Source: Diadophis punctatus similis (Eukaryota; Chordata; Lepidosauria; Squamata; Dipsadidae). Taken from it: 64,000 bases of DNA. Positions 8,337-40,810 of the stretch are shown piece after piece. Both the position numbers and the translations under genes were made by a program. The stretch is taken from assembly GCA_023053685.1 (NCBI GenBank), contig JALIGW010000016.1:8817001-8881000 (forward strand). Reading direction: 5' to 3'. The notes beneath the pieces are model-generated. The model saw nothing but the letters and a program-made list of their open reading frames with translations, ran no database searches and was not told where the DNA came from. The first letter of the stretch is position 1, and each line of letters starts with the position of its first letter.

Positions 8337-8344
8337 GTTTAGTG

Positions 8345-9043
8345 CAGTCCTTCTCAAATAGTGGGGTGCGCCCCCCTGGGGGGGGGTGCAGAGCGATGCC
8401 AAGGGGGGGGTGCGGAGCGATGCCAAGGGGGGGGCGCATGTGACCCCAGGGAACATGCGTGGTCCCTCTCGATCGATTCCCCCGGAAGGGGAGTGTTTTC
8501 CCAGTTGCACGTTTCTCTGAGCCCGGAAGAGAAGGCGGCCAGGCGGGGCGGGGCAGCTGCATGGGTTCTTGTTGTTCTTGGTGGGCACCACGGTAGCCAT
8601 GAACGGCGTGGCGAACCTGCTGCTGGACAAGGAGGAACATCCTCTGCAGCTGGGCGAAAGCTTCGAACGGCACCCTAAAGCCTCCTTCCACACCATTCGC
8701 TGTGAGTGCCCGGCAGAGGCGGCGCTTATGGGCCAGGCCGGCGACCCCAAATCATCGGATTGATTAAGCTGGCCTGGCCCCGTGTCAAAAGAGGGCCCTA
8801 ACCACGGTAGCCTATGCGTGCCTAATCGAAAACAGGCTCCACTGAGTTCAATGTGACTTACTCCCAGGTAAGTGGGTAGAGCAGCCTTCCCCAGCCAATA
8901 GTTTGCTTGCAGCTTATAATAAGTAAAATAATAAATATTAACACTAAAATTCCATTGGGGCCCAGGTCGGAGAGTTGGGGGGCGGGCGCAAAATGTTTAC
9001 TCTTCCTAGGGGGGGCGTCACAGAAAATAATTGAGAAGCACTG
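8345..9043 (+). mobile_element. hAT-like element carrying captured EAF1 DNA
   Basis: The terminal sequences are CAGTCCTTCTCAAATAGTGG and, at the other end, AATAATTGAGAAGCACTG. Perfect GTTTAGTG repeats flank it (8337-8344 and 9044-9051). Near the left end are tandem copies of a G-rich unit (GGGGTGCGGAGCGATGCCAA type, 8371-8440). The middle holds a GC-rich promoter-like segment, an EAF1-like first exon, a splice donor and a reptilian interspersed motif (CACTGAGTTCAATGTGACTT, about 8839-8858), as if a stretch of genomic host DNA had been taken up. No transposase is seen, so the element is non-autonomous. Confidence 0.85.
8599..8701 (+). pseudogene. EAF1: Captured EAF1-like first coding exon with splice donor
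   Basis: Thirty-four codons begin [19 protein letters not shown] and continue through [15 protein letters not shown], plus one base, followed by GTGAGT at 8702. This is the N-terminus of the ELL-associated factor family, which binds ELL elongation factors. The leucine-rich start and ASFHTIR point to EAF1 rather than EAF2. In the family the next residue is tyrosine, which the single T before the donor would begin. Upstream, CCGGAAG (8523-8529, ETS-like) and a GC box (8542-8554) suggest the native promoter was captured too. The remaining exons are absent, so it cannot encode EAF1. The open frame continuing to 8763 is intron read-through. Confidence 0.8.
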
Positions 9044-9051
9044 GTTTAGTG

Positions 9052-40255: not shown

Positions 40256-40810
40256 GAGAGGAGGCTGGCTGTGCTCTGTGAACTGACTCGGCTGCTGAGA
40301 CCTGGTGGAAAAGCACTTGTTTACGTTTGGGCCATGGAGCAGGAATACAAGGAGCAGAAGTCGAAGTATCTGAAAGGGGGGAAAGCTAGTGATAAAAGGT
40401 TTGGCAAAGCTGTCAGCGCCACGCTAAATAAAACAGGCAGCACTGAATGCCAAGGTTTGGCACAGTCCAGCAAGGACTGTAATCAGCCTAATGGGACGAG
40501 CCACAGTCCAAGCCAGCTGGTTCCTGCCAGCCTTCCAGTTCATACAAATAGAACTTCCTTTGAAACTCAAGATGTCTTGGTCCCTTGGAACCTGAAAGAT
40601 GGGATAAAGAAAAAGACAAGACATGCCAAGCTTTGTCAGCCTCTGGATGGCTCTACATATGCTCCGGAACCCAACCCTGTTTTTCACCGCTATTACCACG
40701 TCTTCTACGAAGGTGAACTGGAACAGCTGTGTAGACAACTAGACTGCATAAAGGTGCAAGGAAGTTATTATGACCAAGGAAACTGGTGTGTGGTTCTCGA
40801 AAAGCAGTGA
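40256..40810 (+). CDS. ALKBH8: ALKBH8 terminal coding exon
   Basis: The last coding exon gives 184 residues and a TGA stop. It starts ERRLAVLCELTRLLRPGG (post-motif helix and the conserved LRPGG turn of class I methyltransferases), then VYVWAMEQEYKEQKSKYL. A low-complexity, poorly conserved linker of about 80 residues follows, rich in S, T, N and Q. The exon closes with a conserved C-terminal block containing DVLVPW, FHRYYHVFYEGELEQLC and SYYDQGNWCVVL. The acceptor AG is at 40254-40255. The five exons in the window together encode 406 residues, consistent with the C-terminal three fifths of a protein known to be about 660 residues long. No frameshift or premature stop is seen. Confidence 0.95.
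   Translation, partial: ERRLAVLCELTRLLRPGGKALVYVWAMEQEYKEQKSKYLKGGKASDKRFGKAVSATLNKTGSTECQGLAQSSKDCNQPNGTSHSPSQLVPASLPVHTNRTSFETQDVLVPWNLKDGIKKKTRHAKLCQPLDGSTYAPEPNPVFHRYYHVFYEGELEQLCRQLDCIKVQGSYYDQGNWCVVLEKQ

Follow-up and report, generated by a model that had tools for sequence, protein, structure and literature searches.

We conclude with high confidence that positions 8345–9043 of the window (the whole stretch of 64,000 nucleotides analysed, G000:C68:8817001–8881000 of a 1.78 Gb source genome) are one copy of a high-copy Pack-hAT (Pack-TIR) family, which captured part of EAF1 as genomic DNA in a snake ancestor and then spread. The copy is a 699-bp non-autonomous hAT element that starts with CAGT and ends with ACTG, and the exact 8-bp target site duplication (TSD) GTTTAGTG lies on both sides of it; the original prediction of CAG-ended termini and perfect 8-bp duplications is borne out at 8337–8344 and 9044–9051. 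Its target sites suggest the Buster type of hAT. The window also holds an ORF at 40271–40810 (+ strand) which appears to resemble the last exon of ALKBH8, and it probably lies at an ALKBH8 locus, not at EAF1. The element and its borders are made up as follows:

8337–8344, no strand: left TSD GTTTAGTG, read from the sequence, with TA at positions 4–5 in 48 of the 49 copies whose TSDs have at most one mismatch.
8345–8456, + strand: left hAT arm with the terminal repeat CAGTCCTTCTCAAATAGTGGGG; consensus 1–83 maps there, and the EAF1-free element L120 aligns with it.
8457–8598, + strand: captured EAF1 5' flank, the putative promoter region (142 bp); consensus 84–350 matches the native locus at 93%.
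8599–8701, + strand: captured EAF1 exon 1, 34 codons and the first base of a split Tyr codon, from protein and native-locus matches; P7L in 52 of 52 copies.
8702–8707, + strand: splice donor GTGAGT of EAF1 intron 1, kept in 48 of 52 aligned copies and identical in the native gene.
8708–8968, + strand: captured EAF1 intron 1, lacking two internal stretches of the native intron; consensus 471–523, 524–578 and 577–595 match the native gene at 98–100%.
8969–9043, + strand: right hAT arm with the terminal repeat ...AATAATTGAGAAGCACTG, matched at 84% by the EAF1-free L120; a 28-mer of its end has 2406 genome matches.
9044–9051, no strand: right TSD GTTTAGTG, read from the sequence.

The capture of EAF1 had been recognised correctly at the outset, but its extent is larger than was then seen: the EAF1-derived portion, approximately 8457–8968, makes up nearly all of the element body, including what appeared to be element interior. 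The termini described as terminal inverted repeats are real ends, but they are short, and by eye the two repeats agree at about 14 of their 16 outermost bases, with CAGT...TTCTCAA at both ends; the family end sequences are CAGTGTTTCTCAAATAGTGG and CAGTGCTTCTCAATTATTTTC. The window copy measures 699 bp against 669 bp for the family consensus because of a 24-bp tandem duplication at 8379–8426 in the left arm. CpG observed/expected is 0.76 at 8472–8760 compared with 0.42 for the window as a whole. The captured 5' flank contains a GC box (GGGGCGGGG at 8545) and an ETS-like CCGGAAG at 8523, both of them in the family consensus; CCGGAAG occurs a second time in this copy, at 8482, but of the two sites only that at 8523 is found in the consensus and the native promoter, and the upstream motifs first reported stand to that extent. 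The reading of this flank as a promoter region is thereby supported at the level of sequence only. A 12-bp exact direct repeat, ACCACGGTAGCC, is present at 8587–8598, just before the ATG, and at 8801–8812 in the intron.

The predicted start-to-donor segment of 34 codons followed by GTGAGT was found at 8599–8707, the coding codons occupying 8599–8700 and a T at 8701 ending the exon. The 34-residue translation aligns over its whole length with residues 1–34 of human EAF1 (E 1.2e-11), in agreement with the EAF-family N-terminus that had been proposed. A Tyr codon would be split between exons 1 and 2, and a query beginning with this Tyr matched exon 2 from its residue 2. Compared with Crotalus EAF1, 33 of 34 residues are identical, and the sole difference, seen likewise against Ahaetulla, is P7L, a CCG to CTG change and hence a CpG transition. 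Chance similarity is ruled out by the 90–100% identity of 40 scored loci to the element and by the finding of the native parent.

This parent is the single EAF1 locus that the original prediction had anticipated, with matching exon 1, 5' flank and intron 1 in the same order. The native segment is G000:C386:472378–473061 (684 bp), its exon 1 lying within locus L053, and a search with the rest of EAF1 placed the remaining exons at G000:C386:474981–478983; weaker matches to the EAF1 query on C1 near 214.88 Mb would represent EAF2. A METTL6 coding match (human query) lies head-to-head with native EAF1 and starts 992 bp upstream of its start, an arrangement also known from human. The parent of the captured segment can thus be identified at another place in the genome, and the element consensus is colinear with it (84–350 at 93%, 471–523 at 98%, 524–578 at 100% and 577–595 at 100%), consensus 329–350 and the last three blocks matching native intron 1. 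Since native intron 1 sequence lies inside the element and the 5' flank is retained, our data agree with the initial proposal of genomic uptake. A processed EAF1 retrocopy that landed in the element or was picked up by it has next to no probability: a fungal hAT is described, in the part of the report consulted, as having obtained histone H3 from a transcript or retrocopy (PMC6710886), showing that such a route exists, but here the 5' flank and the intron following the donor are colinear with the native gene, and tblastn with Crotalus EAF1 found no further EAF1 exons in the window, including exon 2, its other matches being to the serine-rich part.

When the native 684-bp segment was used as query, only the native locus matched at full length (40 scored of 1471 candidates). 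The other 39 scored loci match the first 260-odd native bases at 90–92%, many of them also with intron blocks, and none covers native positions 334–507, so that the founder apparently had the intron deletions already. The 120 bp at 8724–8843 (consensus 351–470) have no counterpart in native EAF1 of the source genome. The predicted protein P0122 (L7, read-through) retains the equivalent sequence, and Laticauda P0123 resembles its start weakly and by eye; on the basis of P0122, and weakly of P0123, about 120 bp may have been lost from the native gene.

The interior of the element is foreign and is flanked on both sides by the arms of one TIR element (8345–8456 and 8969–9043); in the consensus comparison, no match to these arms was found at the native EAF1 locus. 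Among the first 14 listed matches to the right end, 4 coincide with listed exon matches and the other 10 were inspected. Seven carry EAF1 pieces (L113, L115–L117, L119, L121 and L122, several of them rearranged), and three (L114, L118 and L120) are free of EAF1 and have the same arms and exact TSDs of their own. With regard to the rearranged members, L113 carries an insertion of about 250 bp within the intron part, in L115 most of the exon and some of the 5' flank are replaced by other sequence, L119 is without the part preceding the exon, and L122 has late intron pieces only. The alignment of L120 with the window, in two overlapping pieces at 80–81% over 8345–8458 and at 84% over 8969–9043, places the borders of the hAT arms. 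The EAF1-free elements enclose the remnant of an ORF (123 aa in L114, 109 aa in L120, broken in L118) with the sequence pattern GGAGACGAGGAAAGACCRGTATGTTTACTG and a BED-like zinc finger (zf-C2H2_12, E 9.5e-4, below the Pfam cut-off); such N-termini are known from ZBED-type hAT transposases, and a PDB search with the remnant gave no match. These EAF1-free elements, which share the arms and contain a transposase-like remnant, are likely the acceptor (progenitor) type. Neither an autonomous element with these ends nor the N-terminal sequence of the remnant was found among 30 inspected Dimer_Tnp_hAT loci (150 scored of 984 candidates). The Dimer_Tnp_hAT matches belong to several hAT families, a few with long open frames of up to 1170 aa, and these families may include domesticated ones or ones active until recently.

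Where the left arm meets the captured segment, hAT ...AACATGC and native GCGTGG... have a 2-bp GC in common, and at the right junction native ...CAGATC meets hAT GGAG. A model based on these data is that a hAT with an internal deletion, present in an ancestral snake, took up about 0.5 kb of genomic EAF1 in place of its own interior, acquiring the 5' flank, exon 1, the donor and the start of intron 1 in unspliced form. The junctions, with the GC microhomology at the left, would be compatible with a template switch in the course of repair or replication, in line with the template-switch models of Tan et al. (PMC8277862). The founder, with P7L and a rearranged intron, would then have been mobilised by a hAT transposase acting in trans and would have spread to some thousand sites or more, its copies evolving near neutrality.

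The copy number agrees with this model, and the many TIR-bounded copies with an EAF1 block that had been predicted were found in the source genome. A 30-mer of the exon (at most two mismatches) has 1146 genome matches and the right-terminus 28-mer 2406, with none for either reversed control; about a thousand or more sites carry the EAF1-bearing element. The right-end 28-mer has exactly 1203 matches on each strand, an equality that we take for chance. In a whole-element search, all 40 scored loci (of 2567 first-look candidates, the window included) are 90–100% identical, and the main aligned piece covers at least 91% of the element in each. From these we took 38 of the 39 loci other than the window with their flanks, leaving out C2:1212470, and we added a second set of 20 loci from the exon-pattern list (the first sites on contig C1, minus one already in the sample), chosen independently of whole-element similarity and with an intact exon 30-mer by choice. 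All 20 carry element sequence, 15 of them with both ends, and both termini are present in 53 of the 59 inspected loci (window plus 58), including 38 of 39 in the first set with the window.

In the 53 two-ended loci, TSDs are exact in 38 and have at most one mismatch in 49, compared with 4 of 10600 random flank pairs at the same threshold. Forty-six of the 49 are distinct and 48 of the 49 fit nnnTAnnn, with TA at positions 4–5, whereas four loci (L016, L018, L019 and L036) have no clear TSD, L036 possibly through a one-base shift. These data leave a negligible probability to segmental or tandem duplication, or to two unrelated hATs around a pseudogene, with no single mobile unit. Some flanks of different loci are indeed alike (70–98% over 44–171 bases), perhaps reflecting other repeats, but the mostly distinct nnnTAnnn TSDs, the two constant termini and the spread of copies over many contigs speak for transposition.

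The spread from a single founder follows from P7L, which is common to all aligned copies. By aligned columns, Leu at codon 7 is present in 52 of 52 copies (38 + 14), from which the left-truncated L022 was excluded; a stricter count demanding the 102-base exon gives L7 in 46 of 46, with 6 copies unscored, and all 100 listed exon sites, matched exactly with both bases permitted at codon 7, have the L7 codon. The native gene here and those of Crotalus, Ahaetulla and Laticauda have P7. Median non-CpG divergence from the consensus over 84–605 is 1.7% in the 14 near-full-length copies of the C1 set, L069 (472 bp, both ends) being excluded. With a neutral rate of 1–2.5e-9 per site per year, this corresponds to roughly 7–17 My, on a consensus built from the best matches.

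Substitutions in the 34 codons, a comparison suggested together with the original prediction, show a near-neutral pattern, with at most a slight nonsynonymous deficit by the raw ratio: the exons of 38 copies have 61 nonsynonymous and 41 synonymous changes (ratio 1.5, against 1.86–2.16 expected, about 1.9–2.2), one stop against 1.1–2.1 expected, and one frameshift. Within the 52 aligned copies, the exon is open in 43, GT is kept in 49 and GTGAGT in 48, the ETS-like site is present in 30 and the GC box in 27, and 11 combine an open exon, GTGAGT and both motifs. The many open exons and GT donors, together with the use of the exon in a gene model of Erythrolamprus reginae, could be read as selection maintaining a coding cassette (domesticated first exons), but we give this reading a slim chance, as the young age alone explains the open frames and the substitution ratio, the stop and the frameshift amount at most to that slight deficit. 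A hint of exon conservation in P0122 and P0127 compared with their flanks was dropped in view of the actual DNA copies.

Other squamates were compared through predicted proteins. A 54-residue query returned five proteins, namely P0122 (L7), Laticauda P0123 (P7), one from duck and two that are bird-like by sequence. The Laticauda laticaudata protein (63 aa, UniRef), annotated as an "uncharacterized protein", resembles a translation of EAF1 exon 1 that continues into intron 1 and is probably a partial gene model of native EAF1. A second search returned 19 proteins, including P0127, annotated as an SLC2A5-like transporter of E. reginae, whose first 88 residues are colinear with window 8455–8718, upstream flank and L7 included, and differ from the consensus at 20 of 88 positions, many of CpG type by eye. 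Judged from the gene model, the P0127 N-terminus would derive from a relative of the element, through either mis-annotation or a chimeric first exon. No such insertion was found in the 2996 bp before the SLC2A5-like exon of the host, this gene being perhaps a paralog. The right-end pattern found no relatives in viral_contigs and genome_contigs, nor did snake EAF1 in viral_contigs.

These comparisons bear on whether the EAF1-bearing element was formed in a different snake lineage and reached this one by horizontal transfer. Identity between element and native gene is uneven, 93% in flank and exon versus 98–100% in the intron blocks. The element has V4 and A28, as in Crotalus and Ahaetulla, while native exon 1 here differs from the three other snakes compared in having L4 and S28. 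L4 also occurs in the gecko Euleptes, but EAF1 stretch 168–240 of the source genome is 97–99% identical to Ahaetulla and Crotalus and 79–86% to six lizards, which marks the host as a snake, nearer to these two among the species compared. The V4/A28 state, the related L7 copy in E. reginae and the young age of the copies here (the same 1.7% in 14 copies) would all suit a transfer. However, V4/A28 is probably ancestral for these snakes, so that a later change in the host gene explains the difference, and intron blocks at 98–100% identity tie the element to the native gene of this host. We therefore regard horizontal transfer as unlikely. With L4 and S28 in native exon 1 and about 120 bp of intron 1 kept by the element but absent from the native gene, the element may reflect an earlier condition of EAF1.

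Plants provide the famous examples of gene capture by cut-and-paste transposons, and in animals the cases are mostly single copies. Plant Pack-TYPE and Pack-MULE elements are, as far as the accounts used here go, likewise TIR-bounded carriers of gene fragments, some of them multicopy, but often belong to other superfamilies. In the part of their study used here, Tan et al. (2021; PMC8277862) give 370 Pack-TIRs in 100 animal genomes, 208 of them on hATs, with four multicopy cases. Among them, hAT-N8_XT of Xenopus tropicalis carries 291 bp of CAPSL 5' UTR and resembles our family in that it has hAT termini and TSDs, took the 5' region of a gene from genomic DNA, multiplied by transposition and left the parent gene in place, but it has three transposed copies, in contrast to the 1146 exon matches here, which in the inspected loci come with 5' flank, coding exon and donor. 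A histone H3-bearing hAT of Pseudocercospora fijiensis, with 784 H3-like sequences and 8-bp TSDs, shows a host gene piece similarly amplified to hundreds of copies by a hAT; according to the sections consulted, it is fungal, derived from a transcript or retrocopy, about 9.5 kb long and inactivated by RIP, whereas ours is a 0.67-kb vertebrate element with genomic capture (PMC6710886). The Buster family is defined by nnnTAnnn TSDs, and the Buster-type Mar MITEs of Drosophila are also short non-autonomous hATs with such TSDs and an origin by internal deletion, but the sections consulted do not mention a captured host gene for Mar (PMC3517528). Full-text searches, mainly outside subscription papers, gave no paper linking EAF1 with a transposon in snakes or with a hAT, and no such vertebrate family was among the titles listed. 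Measured against Tan et al. (2021; PMC8277862), the family belongs to a known kind; its novelty would lie in its content and its scale, which is far above their few-copy vertebrate cases.

Each copy is potentially a 5' gene cassette with a CpG-rich flank, a start codon and a phase-1 donor, and one gene model, the SLC2A5-like gene of Erythrolamprus, suggests that neighbouring genes may use it and hints at chimeric N-termini. An active cassette, whose CpG-rich housekeeping promoter with coding start and splice donor would keep copies open and transcribed in the germline and may have aided their spread, and whose sense insertions near genes would supply snakes with new promoters and chimeric N-termini, has a low probability. 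For annotation, the family carries a warning, since a false EAF1 N-terminus is possible in snake gene models. With the parent, the acceptor-type element and the junctions in one genome, the mechanism of capture can be studied on real data, and the family allows one to ask whether a captured promoter favours the spread of an element and whether new genes make use of the scattered first exons.
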